Shown here piece after piece: positions 38,991 to 53,656 of a stretch of 64,000 bases of DNA (its first letter is position 1; each line of letters begins with the position of its first letter). The translations under genes and the position numbers were made by a program. The stretch comes from Micromonospora sp. WMMD980 (GTDB lineage: Bacteria; Actinomycetota; Actinomycetes; Mycobacteriales; Micromonosporaceae). The notes under the pieces are model-generated. The model saw nothing but the letters and a program-made list of their open reading frames with translations, was not told where the DNA came from and did no database searches. The stretch spans positions 4,402,001 to 4,466,000 of the forward strand of contig NZ_JARUBE010000003.1 of the NCBI RefSeq assembly GCF_029626035.1. The letters run 5' to 3'.

Positions 38991-41098
38991 GCGAACGCAC
39001 CGAGCGCAGCGAGGGCCGTGAGGGCATGCCCGGCCAGCACGGCGTGAAGGCGGGGAAGGGCACGGCCGTCCCGCAGCAGAAGGGCGAGCCGAAGCGGCTG
39101 CCGGCGGCCGGGCGGCGACCGGGTGGCCCGCCGCACATGAGCATGGGCATGCCGGCCGAGAAGGCGATGCGGTTCGGGCCGTCCGCCCGCCGGCTGCTGG
39201 GGCGGCTGCGGCCGCACCGGGTCCAGCTCACCGGCGTGCTGGCGCTGGCGCTGGCCAGCGTCGGCCTGAGCGTGGTCGGGCCGAAGGTGCTCGGGCACGC
39301 CACCGACCTGATCTTCAACGGGGTGATCGGCCGGCAGTTGCCGGCCGGCACCAGCACCGAGGCGGCGGTGGCCGCGGCCCGGGCGTCGGGCAACGGCAAC
39401 TTCGCCGACATGCTGGCCCGGATGGACGTGGTGCCCGGCGTGGGCATCGACTTCGGCCGGCTGGGGCGGGTGCTGGCGTTCGCGGTCGCGCTCTACGTCG
39501 TCGCCGGCGTCCTGATGTGGGCCCAGGGCTGGGTGCTCAACGGCGTGGTGCAGCGCACCGTGCTGCGCCTGCGCGCCGACGTGGAGGACAAGCTCAACCG
39601 GCTGCCGCTGCCCTACTTCGACAAGCAGCCCCGCGGCGAGCTGCTGAGCCGCGTCACCAACGACATCGACAACATCTCGCAGACGCTCCAGCAGACGCTG
39701 AGTCAGTTGCTCACGTCGCTGCTCACGGTCGTCGGCGTACTCGGGATGATGTTCTGGATCTCGCCGCTGCTGGCGTCGGTGGCACTTGTCGCGATCCCGC
39801 TGTCGGTGATCGTCACCGGCCAGATCGCCAAGCGGTCGCAGCGCAAGTTCATCGCCCAGTGGACGCACACCGGCGAGCTGAACGCCCAGATCGAGGAGGC
39901 CTACACCGGGCACGAGCTGGTCAAGGTGTTCGGCCGGCAGAAGGAGGTCGAGGCCGCCTTCCACGCCAAGAACGAGGAGCTGTTCGAAGCCAGCTTCGGC
40001 GCCCAGTTCGTCTCCGGGATCATCATGCCGGCGATGTTCTTCATCGGGAACCTCAGCTACGTGGCGATCGCGGTGGTCGGTGGCCTGCGGGTGGCCTCCG
40101 GCGCGATGAGCCTCGGCGACGTGCAGGCGTTCATCCAGTACTCGCGGCAGTTCACCCAGCCGCTGACCCAGGTCGCGTCGATGGCCAACCTGCTCCAGTC
40201 CGGGGTGGCCTCGGCCGAGCGGGTCTTCGCCGTGCTCGACGCCGACGAGCAGAGCGCCGACCCGGCCGAGCCGGCCCGGATCGCCGAACCGCACGGCCGG
40301 GTCGAGTTCGCGCACGTCTCCTTCCGGTACGACCCGGACCAGCCGCTGATCGACGACCTCTCCCTGGTCGCCGAGCCCGGGCACACGGTGGCCATCGTCG
40401 GCCCCACCGGCGCCGGCAAGACGACCCTGGTCAACCTGGTCATGCGGTTCTACGAACTGGATGCCGGACGGATCACCCTGGACGGGGTGGACGTCAGCAC
40501 CATGCGCCGCGACGACCTGCGCGGCCGGATCGGCATGGTGTTGCAGGACACCTGGCTCTTCGGCGGCACCATCCGGGACAACATCGCCTACGGCCGGCCG
40601 GACGCCACCGAGGAGGAGATCCTCGCCGCCGCCCGGGCCACCTTCGTGGACCGCTTCGTGCGCAGCCTGCCGGACGGCTACGACACCGTGATCGACGAGG
40701 AGGGCAGCAACGTCAGCGCCGGCGAGAAGCAGCTCATCACCATCGCCCGGGCGTTCCTGGCCGAGCCGTCGCTGCTGATCCTGGACGAGGCGACCAGCTC
40801 GGTGGACACCCGGACCGAGGTGCTGCTCCAGCGCGCCATGGCGGCGCTGCGCTCCGACCGGACCAGCTTCGTCATCGCGCACCGGCTCTCCACCATCCGC
40901 GACGCCGACCTGATCCTGATGATGGAGCGGGGGCGGATCGTCGAGCAGGGCACCCACGACCAGCTCGTCGCCGCCGACGGCGCGTACGCCCGGCTCTACC
41001 GGGCGCAGTTCACCGGCGCGGTGATCGCCGACGAGGTGCCGGCGCCGACGGGACCGCCGGCCGGGATGCGACCCATCGGCACGCCGGTCGGGAACTGA
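38987..41098 (+). CDS. ABC exporter half-transporter, subunit 2 (canonical Walker B)
   Basis: A 703-aa half-exporter. A 65-residue hydrophilic N-terminal extension (starting [13 protein letters not shown], encoded by a GAGCG-type repetitive stretch) precedes six helices. The nucleotide-binding domain has Walker [15 protein letters not shown], Walker [13 protein letters not shown] with the catalytic Glu, but a non-standard signature [16 protein letters not shown]. Coupled to subunit 1 by ATGA. A strong bidirectional terminator follows. Confidence 0.94.
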
Positions 41099-41130
41099 CG
41101 TGGACCCTGCGACAGTCCCGACACCGGGCA

Positions 41131-41161
41131 CCGCCCGGGTGACCGTGGGTCACCCGGGCGG
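41131..41161. terminator. Bidirectional terminator between the ABC operon and the ThrRS gene
   Basis: CCGCCCGGGTGACC (41131-41144) and GGTCACCCGGGCGG (41148-41161) are perfect 14-bp arms with a GTG loop. Confidence 0.85.
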
Positions 41162-41171
41162 CGGGCCCGGG

Positions 41172-42389
41172 TCAGGCCGGCGGGAGCAGGTCGAGCGACC
41201 GGCTCGCGACCACCCCGCCGATGAGGTCCAGCGCGCGACCCACCGGCATCGGGTCGAGGCCACGCCCGTCGCGCAGGCGCAGCGAGAGCGAGCCGTCGGC
41301 CGCCTCCCGGGCGCCCAGCACCCCGACGTACGGGATGCGACGGCGGGCCGCGTCGCGGATCCGGGCGCCCAACGAGCCCCCGGCGTCGACCTCGGCCCGC
41401 AGGCCGGCCGCCTCCGCCTCCCGGCACAGCCGCCGGGCCGCGCTGGCCTGCGCGTCGTCGATCGGGAGCAGCAGCACCTGCACCGGGGCGTACCAGGCCG
41501 GGAACGCGCCCTCGTGCACCTCGATCAGGTGGGCGAACAGCCGCTCCATGCTGCCCACCAGGCTCCGGTGCACCATCACCGGCCGCTTCCGGCTCCCGTC
41601 CGAGTCGGTGTAGGACAGGTCGAACCGCTCCGGCTTGTCGAAGTCGAGCTGCACGGTGGAGATGGTCGACTCCCGGCCGGCGGCGTCCACGATCTGCACG
41701 TCGATCTTCGGGCCGTAGAACGCGGCCTCGCCGGGGGCCTCGACCGCGTCCACCCCGTCGAGCGCGGCGCGGAGCAGGTTCTCGGCCCGTGCCCAGCCGG
41801 CGTCGTCGCCGACGTACCGCTGCCCCGGCCCGCGCACCGACAGGCGGAACCCGGCCGGGCGGACGCCGAGCGCGGCGTGCGCCTCGCCGATCAGCCGCAG
41901 GATCTCCCGGACCTCGTCGCCGACCTGCTCCGGCGCGCAGAAGTTGTGCGCGTCGTTCAGCGAGATGGCGCGTACCCGGGAGAGCCCGCCGAGCACGCCG
42001 GAGCGCTCCGCCCGATACATCCCGCCCAGCTCGGCGATCCGCAGCGGCAACTCCCGGTAGGACCGGCCGCGCGCGGCGAACACCAGCGCGTGGTGCGGGC
42101 AGAGCGCCGGGCGGAGCACGAACTCGTCGTCGGCGCTCAGCCGCATCGGCGGGAACATGTCGTCGGCGAACCAGCCGAGATGCCCGGAGCGCTCGAACAG
42201 CTCCCGCTTGCCCAGCGGCGGCGAGTAGACGTGCCGGTAGCCGGCCCGGCGCTCCAGCTCCCGGACGTACTCCTCCACGGCGTGCCGGGCGGCGGCGCCG
42301 GCCGGCAGCCAGATCGGCAGGCCGGCGCCGGCGAGCGGATCGGAGACGAACAGCTCCAGGTCCCGGCCGAGCCTACGGTGGTCGATCAT
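41172..42389 (-). CDS. Short threonyl-tRNA synthetase paralogue lacking the TGS and editing domains
   Basis: A 405-aa class II synthetase that would attach Thr to tRNA(Thr). It keeps the full catalytic core: motif 2 ELGGMYRAERSGVLGGLSRV, zinc ligands in LRPALCPHH, DAHNFC and VMVHRSL, motif 3 MVHRSLVGSMERLFAHLIE, and the anticodon-binding domain (APVQVLLLPIDDAQASAARR onward). The N-terminal TGS and editing domains of standard ThrRS (about 640-690 aa) are absent. ATG 42389 has AAGGAGA about 6 nt upstream. Upstream lie a Thr-rich leader peptide and a hairpin. It could be a resistance-type or stress-induced second ThrRS. Confidence 0.9.
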   Translation of the reverse strand: MIDHRRLGRDLELFVSDPLAGAGLPIWLPAGAAARHAVEEYVRELERRAGYRHVYSPPLGKRELFERSGHLGWFADDMFPPMRLSADDEFVLRPALCPHHALVFAARGRSYRELPLRIAELGGMYRAERSGVLGGLSRVRAISLNDAHNFCAPEQVGDEVREILRLIGEAHAALGVRPAGFRLSVRGPGQRYVGDDAGWARAENLLRAALDGVDAVEAPGEAAFYGPKIDVQIVDAAGRESTISTVQLDFDKPERFDLSYTDSDGSRKRPVMVHRSLVGSMERLFAHLIEVHEGAFPAWYAPVQVLLLPIDDAQASAARRLCREAEAAGLRAEVDAGGSLGARIRDAARRRIPYVGVLGAREAADGSLSLRLRDGRGLDPMPVGRALDLIGGVVASRSLDLLPPA

Positions 42390-42441
42390 GTCGCTCTCCT
42401 TGATCGGGTACGACCCGGAGGCGAGCGGGCCCGGAACGCCG

Positions 42442-42474
42442 CGAGGCCCCGGAGCGGATCGCCCCGGGGCCTCG
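42442..42474 (-). terminator. Attenuator-like hairpin in the ThrRS leader
   Basis: CGAGGCCCCGG (42442-42452) and CCGGGGCCTCG (42464-42474) are perfect 11-bp arms with an 11-nt loop, lying between the leader peptide stop (42487) and the ThrRS start. No U-run follows, as is usual in high-GC actinobacteria. It fits a regulated terminator. Confidence 0.7.
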
Positions 42475-42486
42475 TCGACGGAAACG

Positions 42487-42540
42487 TCAGTGCGGCGCGC
42501 CGGGAACACCCGGCGTCGTGGTCCTCTCCGCGCTGCGCAT
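42487..42540 (-). CDS. Threonine-rich leader peptide (putative attenuation sensor)
   Basis: A 17-codon ORF, MRSAERTTTPGVPGAPH, with three consecutive Thr codons (ACC ACG ACG). It starts at ATG 42540, 6 nt after a TACGGT -10-like box (42547-42552), so a leaderless start is likely. It ends 12 nt before the hairpin stem and about 100 nt before the ThrRS gene. Ribosome stalling at the Thr run under threonyl-tRNA shortage would be expected to open the terminator. The arrangement is seen directly; the mechanism is inferred. Confidence 0.7.
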   Translation of the reverse strand: MRSAERTTTPGVPGAPH

Positions 42541-42596
42541 GCGGTGACCGTACGGCCGGTGGGCCGGACGGCGCGACCGAGTTTCCGGTCGGCGGG
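42541..42596. promoter_or_regulatory. Promoter region of the Thr leader/ThrRS transcript
   Basis: TACGGT on the minus strand at 42547-42552 is the probable -10 box. The -35 region (42570-42575 at 17-nt spacing) is GC-rich and weak. Confidence 0.45.
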
Positions 42597-42683
42597 TCAG
42601 CGCTTCTCGCAGGCGACGCCGTCCCGGTCCCGGTCCAGGTGGGTGTTCTTGGCGTGGACGGCGTTGGAGACCGTGGAAACCAT
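42597..42683 (-). pseudogene. Excalibur calcium-binding domain remnant or 28-aa micro-ORF
   Basis: The minus strand encodes 28 residues including SNAVHAKNTHLDRDRDGVACEK, i.e. the C-terminal half of an excalibur domain, with its DxDxDG calcium loop and terminal ACE(K). A GGAGG sits 4 nt before ATG 42683, and an in-frame TAG lies nine codons upstream, so the N-terminal part of the usual secreted protein is missing. It is probably a remnant, though it may still be translated. Confidence 0.6.
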
Positions 42684-42951
42684 CGAGCCTCCAGCGTGGA
42701 GTTTCCGCTAGGGCCCAAGATCGTATCTGGGGAGCGCAGACCGGGAGGCGCGCTGTCGCAGGCCCGACAGCGGAGAGTGGGTGCGGGTCGCCGGCACGGG
42801 ACCTGCCGACGACCCGCGGCGGCCCGGGCGTCGGGAACGGGGGACCCGACGGCGCCGGTGCCGCGTCCCGTCAACGGTACGCCGGTGCGCGCGGTTCCGC
42901 CGCCCCGCTCCGCGCCCGGCCCGACCCGGGAACTCCGGCCGGGTGGCGCTC
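42684..42951. other. Intergenic region before the DedA gene
   Basis: About 270 bp, GC-rich, without a convincing ORF or hairpin. It must contain the dedA-like promoter; no clear -10/-35 pair was found. Confidence 0.35.
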
Positions 42952-43764
42952 ATGGCTGACCTCATCGCCCACGTCGCGTCGCCCGCCTGGGCGTACGCGC
43001 TGCTGTTGGCCCTGCTGGTCGCGGACGCCTTCGTGCCGGTGGTGCCGACCCAGATCGTGATGATCACCAGCGGCGCGCTGACCGTCTACGGCGGGCTCAG
43101 CCTGCCGCTGACCATCGCGGTCGGCGCGGCCGGCGTCTTCGTCGGCGACCTGGCCTGCTATCTGCTCGGCCGCACCGCGCCGGCCCGGCGGGCGGCCCGG
43201 CACGCGACGCCGGGCCGGACCCGCCGGGCCGTCGCCCGGGCCACCCGCCGGCTGCGCGAACCCGGACCGCTGGTGATCCTGCTGTGCCGGTTCGTGCCCG
43301 GCGGCCGGATGGCGGCGTGCTTCTCGGCCGGCCGCCGCCGCTACCCGTACCGCCTCTTCCTGGCCTACGACGCGGTCGCGGCGATCGGCTGGGCCGGCTA
43401 CGGCACGCTCGTCGGCCACCTGGGCGGCGCGGCGCTCACCGGTTCGGCGTGGCGGTTGCTGCTTATCGGCGGCGTCGCCGCCGGCGGGTTCGCGGCGGCC
43501 GGCTGGGCGATGACCTGGCTCGGCGCCCGCCAGGCCGCGACGCCATCAGCCGGTGACCTTGTCGAAGGAGAATCGATCATGAATGACGGAGCGAACCGGC
43601 GCGAGATCCGCGCCGGAGCCCAGCGGCTCGACCCCACCTGGAACGATCCCGAGCGGGTGGCCCGACGTCGACAGCTCAGCGAGCAGATGCTGGCCGCGGT
43701 AGACGGCGCGCAGCCGGTCCCGGCCGGCGAGGAGCCGGACCGGGCCGGGACTCCGGTCGACTGA
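42952..43764 (+). CDS. DedA family membrane protein with an extra C-terminal segment
   Basis: A 270-aa product. Residues 1-205 are a DedA/SNARE-associated domain (VADAFVPVVPTQIVMITSGA, GVFVGDLACYLLGR, VILLCRFVPGGRMAACFSAG, YDAVAAIGWAGYGTLVGHLG), a family linked to undecaprenyl-phosphate or phospholipid flipping. The last 61 residues (from MNDGANRREIRAGAQRLDP) are soluble and charged. An AAGGAG stands 8-9 nt before that internal ATG (43579), so a second protein may start there in the same frame. ATG 42952 is chosen; GTG 42943 is possible. Confidence 0.82.
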   Translation: MADLIAHVASPAWAYALLLALLVADAFVPVVPTQIVMITSGALTVYGGLSLPLTIAVGAAGVFVGDLACYLLGRTAPARRAARHATPGRTRRAVARATRRLREPGPLVILLCRFVPGGRMAACFSAGRRRYPYRLFLAYDAVAAIGWAGYGTLVGHLGGAALTGSAWRLLLIGGVAAGGFAAAGWAMTWLGARQAATPSAGDLVEGESIMNDGANRREIRAGAQRLDPTWNDPERVARRRQLSEQMLAAVDGAQPVPAGEEPDRAGTPVD

Positions 43765-43828
43765 GCCCGGATCTCCGAGGACGTCGGAGTGCCGCAACCC
43801 GCAGCGCACCAGGTCCACTTGTCCCGCG

Positions 43829-45232
43829 CTACTCCAGCTCGTGCAGCATGAGCTGGCGGGCGGCCTCGGTGATCGAACCGGACAGGCTCGGATAGATGGT
43901 GATGGTGTGCGCCAGCTCGTTGACGGTGAGGTTGTTCTCCACCGCCATGGTGATCGGCAGGATCAGCTCGCTCGCCTTCGGCGCCACCACCACGCCGCCG
44001 ATCACCTGGCCGCTGGCCGGCCGGCAGAACAGCTTGACGAAGCCGTCGGCCAGGTCGTCCATCTTCGCCCGGGCGTTGCCGGACAGCGGCAGCATCACCT
44101 GGCGGGCCGGGGTCTTGCCGGCGTCGACCTCGTCCTGCGAGACGCCGACCGTGGCCAGCTCCGGGTCGGTGAAGACGTTCGCCGCGACGGTACGCAGCCG
44201 CAGCGGCCGGACCGCCTCGCCCAGCGCGTGCCACATGGCGATCCGGCCCTGCATGGCCGCGACGCTGGCCAGCGGCAGCACCCCGGTGCAGTCGCCGGCC
44301 GCGTAGACGCCGGGCACGTTGGTCCGGGACACCCGGTCGACCGTGACGTAGCCGCCCCGGGCCAGCTCGACGCCGTATTCCGCCAGGCCCAGGTCGGCGG
44401 TGTTCGGGATCGAACCGACCGCGATCAGCGCGTGTGAGCCGGTGACCTGACGCCCGTCGGAGAGCACCACCTCGACTCCGTCGCCGACCCGGCGCACCGC
44501 CTCGGCCCGCGAGTTGTTGAGGATGCTCATGCCCCGGTTGCGGAACACCCGCTCGATCGCCATCGCGGCGTCCGCGTCCTCGTGCGGCATCACCCGGTCC
44601 CGGCTGGAGACCAGCGTGACCCGCACGCCCATGGCCAGGTAGGCGCTGGCGAACTCGGCGCCGGTGACGCCGGAGCCGACCACGATCAGGTGCTCGGGCA
44701 GCTCCGGCAGGTCGTAGACCTGACGCCAGGTCAGGATCCGCTCGCCGTCGGGCACGGCGGTGGGCAGCTGGCGCGGGGTCGCGCCGGTGGCGACCAGCAC
44801 GGTGGAGGCTCCGACCGGGTACGCGGGCGAGCCGTCCGCCGGGGTGACGATCACCTGGTGGGTGTGGCCGAGCGTGTCCTCGCCGAGCCGCGCGGTGCCG
44901 GCCACGAACTCCACCCCGGCCTTGACCAGCTTGGTGTGGATGTCGGCGGACTGGGCCAGCGCGAGCCGCCTGACCCGCTCGTGCACCGCCCGGGCGTCGA
45001 CCGTGACCGCCTCCAGGCCGTCGGAGTGGACCCCGAACTCCTCGGTGTCCCGATAGCCGGTGACGACCTCGGAGCTGGCGATGAAGGTCTTGGAGGGCAC
45101 GCAGTCGGAGAGCACGCACGCGCCGCCGGCGCCGTCCGCCTCGACCACTGTGACATCGGCGTCCAGCTGGGCGGCGACCAGTGCCGCCTCGTACCCGGCC
45201 GGCCCGCCGCCGATGATCACGATCTGGCTCAC
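43829..45232 (-). CDS. lpdA: NAD(P)H-quinone dehydrogenase / lipoamide dehydrogenase-like flavoprotein
   Basis: A 467-aa pyridine nucleotide-disulphide oxidoreductase: FAD motif IVIIGGGPAGYEAALVA, NAD motif LIVVGSGVTGAEFASAYLAM, FAD-binding VPGVYAAGDCTGV and a C-terminal dimerisation domain. The redox motif is degenerate (GGACVLSDCVPSK instead of CxxxxC), matching the mycobacterial LpdA group that reduces quinones rather than lipoamide. GTG 45232 has AAAGGA about 8 nt upstream. A GAGCG-type repeat lies just upstream. GGCT lies upstream in the opposite direction. Confidence 0.9.
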   Translation of the reverse strand: MSQIVIIGGGPAGYEAALVAAQLDADVTVVEADGAGGACVLSDCVPSKTFIASSEVVTGYRDTEEFGVHSDGLEAVTVDARAVHERVRRLALAQSADIHTKLVKAGVEFVAGTARLGEDTLGHTHQVIVTPADGSPAYPVGASTVLVATGATPRQLPTAVPDGERILTWRQVYDLPELPEHLIVVGSGVTGAEFASAYLAMGVRVTLVSSRDRVMPHEDADAAMAIERVFRNRGMSILNNSRAEAVRRVGDGVEVVLSDGRQVTGSHALIAVGSIPNTADLGLAEYGVELARGGYVTVDRVSRTNVPGVYAAGDCTGVLPLASVAAMQGRIAMWHALGEAVRPLRLRTVAANVFTDPELATVGVSQDEVDAGKTPARQVMLPLSGNARAKMDDLADGFVKLFCRPASGQVIGGVVVAPKASELILPITMAVENNLTVNELAHTITIYPSLSGSITEAARQLMLHELE

Positions 45233-50374: not shown

Positions 50375-51590
50375 GGCGCACGCCCGCCTCGATGGCGCGC
50401 TCGTCCACGTCGAAGGAGGCCCGGTGCAGGTCCACGTTGGGACCGTTCCGGCCGACGCCGAGGCGGGCGAGCGCGCCGGGGACGTGCTCCAGATACCAGG
50501 AGAAGTCCTCGCCGCCCATGCTCTGCGGCGTCTCGGCGATGCCCTCCGGCCCGAGCGCCGACGCGGTGGCCGCGGTGAACACGCCGATCGCTCCGGCGTC
50601 GTTCGTCACCGGCGGGCGGCCCCGCAGGTATTCCAGGTCCACGGTGGCGCCGGTGGGGGCCAGTACGTCGCGCACCACCTGCGCCACGATCTTGGGCGCC
50701 TGGTCCCAGGTGTCCCGGTCCATGACCCGGAGCGTGCCGGCCGCGGACGCCTCGGAGGGGATGACGTTGTAGCGGGTGCCGGCCGACGCGTGACCGAACA
50801 CCAGCAGCAGTCCACTGTTGGCCGGCACCCGGCGGCTGATCAGCGTCGGCACCTCGGTGACCAGCCGGCCGAGCGCGTCGACCAGGTCGACGGTCAGGTG
50901 CGGGCGGGCGGTGTGCCCGCCCGGCCCGGTGAGCCGGACGGTGACGTTGTCCGCGGCGGCGGTGATCGGGCCGACCCGCAGGCCGACCTTGCCCACCGGC
51001 AGGTTCGGGTCGCAGTGCAGCGCGAAGATCTGCACCACGTCGTCCAGGCCGCCGGCCTCGATGACCTCGAGCGAGCCGCAGGGCAGGATCTCCTCGGCCG
51101 GCTGGAAGATCAGCCGGACCCGGCCGTCCAGTTCCCCGAGGTCGGCGAGTTGGGCGAGCAGCATGCCGACGCCGAGCATCACGGCGGTGTGCACGTCGTG
51201 GCCGCAGGCGTGGCAGACGCCGTTCACGGTCGAGCGGTAGGGGACGTCCTTCGAGTCGCTCAGCGGCAGCGCGTCGATGTCGGCGCGGAGGGCGACCACC
51301 GGCCCGTCCGGGCGGCCGTCGATGTCGCAGATGACGCCGTTGCCCTTAGGCAGGAGGCGCGGCTTCAGCCCGGCGAGGGACAGCTCGCGGTGCACCAGGG
51401 CCGCCGTCTCGAACTCCTCGCCCGACAACTCCGGGTGGGAATGGATGTGACGACGGGTCGCGATGAGGCCGGGTACCCGCAGCGCGAGCAGATGGTCGAG
51501 CTCGAAGGGCAGGGGCTGGGAACCGGTCGGCGACTCGGGCCGGGACGACGCCAGCGGGCCGCCAGAAGACAGCGTCAACGCACTCGTCAC
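50331..51590 (-). CDS. M20 family amidohydrolase/peptidase
   Basis: Zinc hydrolase of the amidohydrolase (AmiA/hippurate hydrolase) type. Metal-site motifs are VCHACGHDVHTAVMLGVGML, FQPAEEILPCGSLEVIEAG (catalytic Glu) and MGGEDFSWYLEHVPGAL. It also has the dimerisation lid HTARPHLTVDLVDALG. From GTG 51590 it is 419 aa, typical of the family. An in-frame ATG at 51776 with AGGAGGTG about 9 nt upstream would add 62 residues, but that stretch has low GC3, so I prefer 51590. Equivalent to the mycobacterial amiA-type gene near lpdA/GGCT. Confidence 0.86.
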   Translation of the reverse strand: MTSALTLSSGGPLASSRPESPTGSQPLPFELDHLLALRVPGLIATRRHIHSHPELSGEEFETAALVHRELSLAGLKPRLLPKGNGVICDIDGRPDGPVVALRADIDALPLSDSKDVPYRSTVNGVCHACGHDVHTAVMLGVGMLLAQLADLGELDGRVRLIFQPAEEILPCGSLEVIEAGGLDDVVQIFALHCDPNLPVGKVGLRVGPITAAADNVTVRLTGPGGHTARPHLTVDLVDALGRLVTEVPTLISRRVPANSGLLLVFGHASAGTRYNVIPSEASAAGTLRVMDRDTWDQAPKIVAQVVRDVLAPTGATVDLEYLRGRPPVTNDAGAIGVFTAATASALGPEGIAETPQSMGGEDFSWYLEHVPGALARLGVGRNGPNVDLHRASFDVDERAIEAGVRLMVQTALRALVAAR

Positions 51591-52016
51591 GTCGAATTCT
51601 CGATCACTAGAGAGGGATGGATCATCGGGTAGGACAGCAGACAGCCTAGACCCTTGACGGTGACGCTGCGCAACATCCTTCGTGTAGCGGTCGGACCGCG
51701 CAGCGTCACGAACGCCCTGGTGGGAGTGCTCGAATATCTGCGGGACAGCAGGTAGATCGTGGTCGGACGCCGTCATCTGCACCCCACCTCCTACAACGCG
51801 TAACCGTTTCATCGGTCACCAAATAGCGAGTCGTCGTTCCGAATTGTCGCATTAGTCGCGGCAATTAACTGCCGCTCCGACAATTGGCCGACAACATTCG
51901 GCTGCCGGGCGACTCCTGACGGTGACATGACCGCGCCGTGCGCGACCGCACAGACTGTCCGTCCCGTTCACCCGATCGGGTTACCCCTATTCCGACATCG
52001 CACACCCGGACGGGAC
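51591..52016. other. Intergenic region upstream of the M20 gene
   Basis: Holds the M20 promoter (TAGGCT near 51645 on the minus strand is a candidate -10 box) and either a long leader or the N-terminal extension discussed there. AT-richer around 51790-51900 (TTAGTCGCGGCAATTAACTG). No other gene is seen. Confidence 0.4.
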
Positions 52017-52060
52017 GCGGCCCGTGTCGGCGCACCCCGGGGTGCGCCGACACGGGCCGC
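52017..52060. terminator. Perfect 22-bp inverted repeat after the acyl-CoA mutase gene
   Basis: Arms 52017-52038 and 52039-52060 are exact reverse complements with no spacer (GCGGCCCGTGTCGGCG... and its mirror). It ends 12 bp after the mutase stop, so it most likely terminates that gene. Confidence 0.8.
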
Positions 52061-52072
52061 CGTCGGGACGCG

Positions 52073-53656
<1,584 letters not shown>

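Follow-up and report, generated by a model that had tools for sequence, protein, structure and literature searches.

A short threonyl-tRNA synthetase (ThrRS) gene in the window, i.e., the whole 64,000-nucleotide stretch of Micromonospora DNA that was analyzed, is preceded by a conserved leader that is quite probably a ribosome-mediated leader-peptide attenuator of this ThrRS paralogue, with a transcript probably starting from a WhiB7/WblC-dependent promoter and with an additional element, E, that would link the leader to translation. In the 5' to 3' direction of the minus strand (42585-41172), the order of elements is GAAACT, a weak -35, TACGGT, the leader, the hairpin, E, the Shine-Dalgarno (SD) sequence, and the ThrRS gene, as follows:

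42580..42585, minus strand: GAAACT, WhiB7/WblC-type box, matching GAAAWY in 5 of 6 positions, 27 nt from the -10 box
42576-42571, minus strand: weak -35 TCGCGC, 3 nt 3' of the box, with an 18-nt spacer to the -10 box
42547..42552, minus strand: -10 box TACGGT, 6 nt 5' of the leader ATG; a TAnnnT sequence within the search criterion
42487..42540, minus strand: thrL-like leader peptide ORF, MRSAERTTTPGVPGAPH followed by a stop; 17 codons, ATG at 42540
42535-42528 / 42495-42488, minus strand: P1a, start of the ORF paired with its end; 86% of cells paired in both groups of leaders
42514..42522, minus strand: Thr codons ACC ACG ACG, the proposed sensing codons (codon counts in 157 leaders are given below)
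42515-42509 / 42504-42498, minus strand: P1b, the 1:2 hairpin CGCCGGG / CCCGGCG, directly after the Thr codons
42500..42505, minus strand: segment B (2:3, antiterminator-like), which can pair with CCGGGG (42467-42462) of segment C
42489-42487, minus strand: leader stop TGA, exactly 12 nt from the hairpin
42474-42460 / 42456-42442, minus strand: terminator-like hairpin C:D (3:4), loop ATC
42417..42424, minus strand: element E (TCGCCTCC), complementary to GGGGCGA of C (42465-42459)
42401-42396, minus strand: SD AAGGAG; the SD region with the E-complementary stretch is 42391..42401
41172..42389, minus strand: short ThrRS, 405 aa, ATG at 42389; only catalytic and anticodon-binding domains were found

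The Leader ORF and the Short ThrRS Gene

The original prediction had described a 17-codon leaderless ORF with three Thr codons, followed after 12 nt by a perfect 11-bp stem and then by the SD and the ATG of a short ThrRS. All these elements are present at the places it gave, and a leaderless transcript starting at the leader ORF is plausible because the TAnnnT -10 box sits 6 nt before the ATG. What it had overlooked is the hairpin inside the ORF, formed by CGCCGGG and CCCGGCG directly 3' of the Thr codons. The ORF is short, and its codon run matches the amino acid of the downstream gene, as would be expected of an attenuator; its translation is predicted from the sequence. The minimum free energy (MFE) of the region 42540-42389 is -93.1 kcal/mol (z -4.1), and none of 200 shuffled sequences was equally stable. 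The core leader pattern has a single match in its own genome (6.83 Mb), ahead of a ThrRS, and the suggestion that the element stands before short ThrRS genes only is limited to that genome.

The short ThrRS scores 417.5 bits against the thrS equivalog model TIGR00418 (cut-off 383.65), and its top PDB match by score is 1nyq, which we take to be a Staphylococcus enzyme. The motifs PALCPHH, NDAHNF, and MVHRSLV, at residues 94, 145, and 272, respectively, presumably cover the Zn-ligand positions of ThrRS. A second, longer open frame elsewhere in the genome (740 aa, with the match being 42% identical) likely encodes the full-length ThrRS. Another genome, G821, carries two short-ThrRS copies with equal scores in opposite orientation on one contig, ~24 kb apart (G821:C1:27015-28184 and 51562-52731). 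Just 5' of the promoter in the window lies a 28-codon ORF (42683-42597, minus strand; MVSTVSNAVHAKNTHLDRDRDGVACEKR) that ends in DxDxDGxxCE, in our view resembling an Excalibur-type calcium-binding motif; a similar DNA end (gcgagaagcgctga) is also found upstream in locus L076.

Conservation of the Leader

Matches to the short ThrRS were detected in 132 of the 160 genomes of the genus and in 93 of 250 and 127 of 249 genomes of two further families (all at 1e-120), as well as in 63 of 394 genomes of a class-wide draw at 1e-110, including genome G230, where the match is only in a long ThrRS frame. The upstream DNA inspected was that of 309 fetched loci, not of all ThrRS matches; the loci were drawn from families f1 (Micromonosporaceae) and f19-f22 and from one f2 genome. 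The named ones (the best 80 of 101) include Micromonospora, Salinispora, Plantactinospora, Asanoa, Actinoplanes, Phytohabitans, and Catelliglobosispora, along with one Kitasatospora and two Streptomyces.

With the leader defined by a Thr-Thr-Pro or Thr-Thr-Ser codon pattern in a short ORF located 5-8 nt after TAnnnT, within 500 nt, it was present at 304 of the 309 short-ThrRS loci (some genomes are included twice) and in none of 2480 control stretches of like size, taken, 40 per locus, from the flanks of those of loci L033-L108 that are at least 9000 bases long. The five misses comprise L169, located near a contig edge; L262, with a degenerate Thr-Thr-Arg; and L237, L252, and L284, each of which has, by eye, a Thr-Thr-Thr-Pro leader that the pattern did not match. 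A wider pattern search gave matches in 100 of the 394 class genomes, with the leader spacing absent in many of them.

Three consecutive Thr codons were found in 152 of 157 distinct leaders and Asn-Thr-Thr in the other 5. The run ends in ACG ACG in 156 of the 157 and begins with ACG in 84, with ACC in 68, and with AAC in 5. Locally, ACG is the second Thr codon (ACC 400 vs ACG 156 in 19 long window ORFs that were chosen by codon-position GC). The 157 are the distinct members of 174 leaders found (L049, L169, and L178 were skipped, two of them Thr-Thr-Ser variants); their counts are quoted because in the larger set, where 303 of the 304 leaders have ACGACG and 285 are distinct, ACG is there by construction. 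Both the Thr run and the hairpin are kept across orthologous leaders, which was the check that the original prediction itself had named. On its second point, the position of the transcription start, a start ahead of the ORF is favored by the conserved -10 box, although TAnnnT belongs to the search criterion.

The Promoter and the WhiB7/WblC Box

In Streptomyces coelicolor, WblC-activated promoters carry GAAAWY 3 bp before the -35, a 16-19-bp spacer, and TAnnnT, and thrS2 is listed among the WblC-activated genes (PMC7157823, in excerpt). The same layout is found here, with a weak -35. At the corresponding distance, 25-28 nt upstream of the -10, 196 of 284 leaders have a box matching in at least 5 of 6 positions, compared with 5 of 284 at 40-43 nt; the remaining 88 leaders have no box at this level. 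Among the six WhiB-family matches in the genome, L319 (G000:C3:6474558-6474707) has EPWGVWGG and RGRP. An EPW-type motif and RGRP are marks of WhiB7 (PMC10727445, in excerpt), and L319 is likely to be the WhiB7/WblC of this genome. The leader promoter can be seen as a putative WhiB7 target, and the transcript probably starts from it.

Mutually Exclusive Hairpins

A recognizable SD and an in-frame start were found in 255 of the 285 leaders, comprising 97 from Micromonosporaceae and 158 from distant families, of which 58 and 147, respectively, were kept after reduction. Hairpin C:D has a stem of 11 perfect pairs (15 pairs with one G-U as RNA), and its score is above those of all shuffles in 202 of the 255 leaders. 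It also covaries: same-branch changes are compensatory in 9 of 11 doubles among the 58 Micromonosporaceae sequences (P 0.001) and in 4 of 6 among the 147 distant ones (P 0.009), and in a 50-sequence alignment, 18 cells changed on both sides, versus 5.9 after shuffling. A U-run after the hairpin is absent, with at most three T in 8 nt in 236 of the 255 leaders, the window's own leader being likewise without one. Of the two features of a classical intrinsic terminator, the hairpin has the GC stem and lacks the U-run; it was not classed as an intrinsic terminator, and any termination at C:D is putative because no U-run follows. Rfam covariance models gave no T-box or other match in window positions 41000-44000 at E-values up to 1, and no match at the gathering threshold in L001, L113, L118, and L149.

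The 1:2 hairpin P1b is nearly invariant, with 99.9% of cells paired in the 147 distant sequences and 97% in the 58 from Micromonosporaceae; P1a showed 0 and 1 compensatory events in the two groups, respectively. For B:C, there were no compensatory events in either group (58 Micromonosporaceae, 147 distant), and its use is suggested by complementarity and folding. When the nascent RNA was folded cut before D, with a Thr-stalled ribosome of an assumed footprint, the median number of expected B:C pairs was 8.1 in the 97 Micromonosporaceae leaders and 8.3 in the 158 distant ones, compared with 0.1-0.2 without a ribosome and 0 with the ribosome at the stop codon. Stalling was predicted to add more than two B:C pairs in 93 of the 97 Micromonosporaceae leaders and in 113 of the 158 distant ones; in the other 4 and 45, respectively, the gain was two pairs or fewer. 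Mutually exclusive 1:2, 2:3, and 3:4 pairings that depend on the position of the ribosome are found in the leader, with 2:3 predicted from complementarity and from folding of the nascent RNA; apart from the absent U-run, this is the layout of a textbook attenuator. When the window RNA is folded at full length, C:D is dominant even with a stalled ribosome (0.93), and therefore any effect must be kinetic. A candidate pairing of the Thr codons with the post-hairpin tail (A:Dtail) was rejected: 79% of its cells are paired, yet 72% still pair when slid by -3, and it shows no compensatory event.

Element E and the Shine-Dalgarno Region

In addition to its complementarity to C, element E is complementary to GGAGAGCGA at the SD (42399-42391), and the SD region pairs with E in the MFE fold of the window leader. 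When column pairs from the 147 distant sequences were ranked with no structure supplied, the pairing of the hairpin arm/loop with E came out on top. Under two covariation nulls, no pair reached an E-value of 0.5 or below; the second null, which is conservative, had a lowest value of 1.93, and with it the two highest-ranked pairs among the 147 sequences were C:E pairs. In the same-branch test, which was chosen after the covariation ranking had been seen, 11 of 12 C:E doubles were compensatory in the distant set (P 0.001; at most 1 in slid versions) and 1 of 1 in the 58 Micromonosporaceae sequences (P 0.48), where C:E hardly varies. For E:SD, which comprises two helices, the corresponding test gave 2 of 11 and 2 of 3 compensatory doubles among the distant sequences (4 of 14) and 0 of 4 in Micromonosporaceae, with slid versions reaching 3.

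Further counts come from alignment A1 (a random 50 of 113 sequences) and from a swap test, which overlap with the data above and are only partly independent checks. In A1, C:E is 93.2% paired, with 17 both-side cells versus 5.0 shuffled, and E:SD is 86.1% paired, with 20 versus 6.7; slid versions yielded 8 both-side cells versus the real 17 for C:E, 14 versus 18 for C:D, and 14 versus 20 for E:SD. A less stringent count, that of pairs in which both sides had changed, was reached in 500 shuffles 36 times for C:E, 43 times for C:D, and 6 times for E:SD. The swap test covered the 180 of 205 leaders with a hairpin score of at least 21 and a long enough E and was not corrected for phylogeny. A leader's own partner was better than the average of the partners of others in 144 of 180 cases for C:E and 139 of 180 for E:SD; among the 36 leaders whose loops are unusual, it was better in 33 for each of the two pairings. 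Within Micromonosporaceae, the result was not significant for C:E (26 of 46, P 0.22) and weak for E:SD (30 of 46, P 0.013).

E, located next to the SD, seems to be common to C and the SD; its apparent co-evolution with both, seen mainly in the distant families, suggests a translational layer. Coverage of the SD by an upstream element in one state is seen in folding and complementarity, the tree test being weak. In equilibrium folding of 190 of the 205 leaders, which includes no kinetics or pseudoknots, the SD opened by more than 0.2 in 6 of 144 distant and 1 of 46 Micromonosporaceae leaders with the ribosome stalled and D withheld, and in 18 of 144 and 4 of 46, respectively, with C wholly free. 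As modeled, these counts would oppose a simple translational mechanism unless folding kinetics or a pseudoknot plays a part. A pseudoknot of the H type that combines C:D with C:E was considered on paper only, as the folding programs used do not predict pseudoknots.

Several individual leaders stand out. In L288, the loop, E, and the SD region all have, by eye, a matching change, a natural case of compensation; the rare leader L283 has matching changes in the hairpin loop and E (alignment A1). L127, L255, and L263 form a lineage in which the leader stop and the start codon lie close together (separated by 66 nt in L127); the SD is a different one (AAAGGA), which on visual inspection retains its complementarity to their own E.

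Proposed Mechanism and Alternative Explanations

We think that the leader senses Thr-tRNA because its amino acid is the one used by the downstream enzyme and because C is predicted to switch partners when the ribosome stalls. With ample Thr-tRNA, the ribosome would pass the ACG codons, B would be engaged in the 1:2 hairpin or occupied by the ribosome itself, C:D would form (the OFF state), and the SD would be covered by E. With scarce Thr-tRNA, the ribosome would stall on ACG-ACG and the freed B could pair with the emerging C; B:C would delay C:D, and the downstream gene would be expressed. E would provide the link to translation, with C and the SD competing for it, and the same switch could act on the ribosome-binding site, perhaps alongside or in place of termination. 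The leader would then have two inputs, ribosome stress via WhiB7/WblC and Thr-tRNA supply via the leader peptide. The readout may be termination, SD exposure, or both. We suggest, tentatively, a two-input, two-level switch, in which WhiB7/WblC would turn on transcription and, with C common to B, D, and E, and E common to C and the SD, a shortage of Thr-tRNA would act on elongation and translation initiation together; this is a real possibility, if short of a probable one. The transcription attenuator of the original prediction is retained to the extent that the 1:2, 2:3, and 3:4 pairings exist, but termination is putative because the U-run is missing, and the co-evolution of E with the SD region points to translation as well.

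A chance combination of an ORF and a hairpin in GC-rich DNA has in its favor that hairpins are frequent at such GC content and that shuffled regions reach a hairpin score of 30. It is refuted by the conservation of the leader at 304 of 309 loci versus 0 of 2480 controls, and the hairpin scores that beat every shuffle in 202 of 255 leaders and the compensatory changes also count against it, so that it can hardly be entertained. The leader could also be a sensor of general stalling by translation inhibitors, as is the whiB7 uORF (PMC7157823 and PMC10727445, in excerpt), with the Thr codons kept for the sake of RNA structure. The WblC-type promoter, the WblC activation of thrS2, and the fixed last two Thr codons (ACG ACG in 156 of 157 leaders) would all fit such a sensor. 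We regard it as improbable: the amino acid matches the downstream gene, the opening position of the run is taken by ACG (84 of 157) or ACC (68), both Thr (AAC in 5), and the core pattern occurs once in its own genome, ahead of a ThrRS.

The two other alternatives differ in where the leader would act. In a purely transcriptional attenuator, as put forward in the original prediction, termination would occur at C:D, either intrinsically without a U-run or with the help of Rho; B:C would serve as the antiterminator, and E would be incidental. The 1:2, 2:3, 3:4 architecture, nascent folding, and covariation of C:D speak for this version, but there is no U-run, and in the distant families both C and the SD region co-evolve with E, something that a pure terminator would not require; we consider it rather unlikely. 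In a mainly translational attenuator, the hairpin would be non-terminating, and the choice between C:D and C:E would decide whether E covers the SD. This is possible but, on balance, doubtful. It draws on the absence of the U-run, the E:SD pairing in the MFE fold of the window leader, and the better fit of own partners among the unusual loops, at 33 of 36 for C:E and E:SD each. However, stalled-ribosome folding leaves the SD closed, the signal is weak in Micromonosporaceae, and B and E compete for C, so it is hard to explain how B would favor C:E.

Comparison with Known Systems

The original prediction, which knew of no described case for a synthetase in high-GC actinobacteria, needs correcting: Streptomyces synthetase attenuators are in print, including a thrL before thrS. 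The gene for an auxiliary TrpRS in Streptomyces, the subject of Vecchione and Sello 2010, is said, from the title of that report, to be controlled by ribosome-mediated transcriptional attenuation; by this title, it would likewise combine a spare synthetase with leader-peptide attenuation, for Trp and not Thr. Attenuators have also been predicted for trpS and leuS in Streptomyces (Seliverstov 2005, PMC1262725, in excerpt), likewise as classical attenuators ahead of actinobacterial synthetase genes. Unlike here, for threonine operons, the same excerpt describes no conserved upstream RNA structure. The second ThrRS gene of Anabaena, thrS2, is controlled by zinc through Zur repression (PMC4787780, in excerpt); it is a stress-induced second ThrRS as well, but that excerpt describes no leader peptide.

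If true, the proposed mechanism would explain how induction of a spare ThrRS is confined to those episodes of translation stress in which charged Thr-tRNA is scarce. This would bear on the hypothesis that WblC-activated synthetases supply aminoacyl-tRNAs under antibiotic stress (PMC7157823, in excerpt). Besides PMC8079986, no ThrRS attenuator in Streptomyces or Micromonospora was found in the open-licence literature, and among the titles listed from that literature, none joins WblC with this leader. Within it, neither the conserved E switch nor the presence of a WblC box in the leader promoter seems to have been described; what looks new is the taxonomic reach, the stress-type promoter, and the second RNA switch at the ribosome-binding site.

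The closest known relative is found in the reannotation of S. lividans TK24, which places thrL (SLIV_19412) before thrS (SLIV_19410) and also lists alaL, trpL2, and leuL2 (PMC8079986, in excerpt); its metL, a leader before metN (Table 4 of the same paper), also holds TTTPG (MSTTSDRTPATEATTTPGARCMCRRMCAF). The thrL product is a leaderless peptide, MKRVRPFLETTPGFVPAR, close to the MKRA..TTPE.VPAR leaders of the short ThrRS genes studied here, and it is very likely the same element, judging from the leader ending TTPxxVPAR; SLIV_19410 would then be a short ThrRS. The S. lividans leader differs in having two Thr instead of three, and conservation, an antiterminator, SD pairing, and a WblC box are not described in the excerpted account of it. 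It has one hairpin and no U-run, and the authors call termination not clear (PMC8079986, in excerpt). The leader analyzed here offers an answer for that U-run-less hairpin, which may work on the ribosome-binding site.
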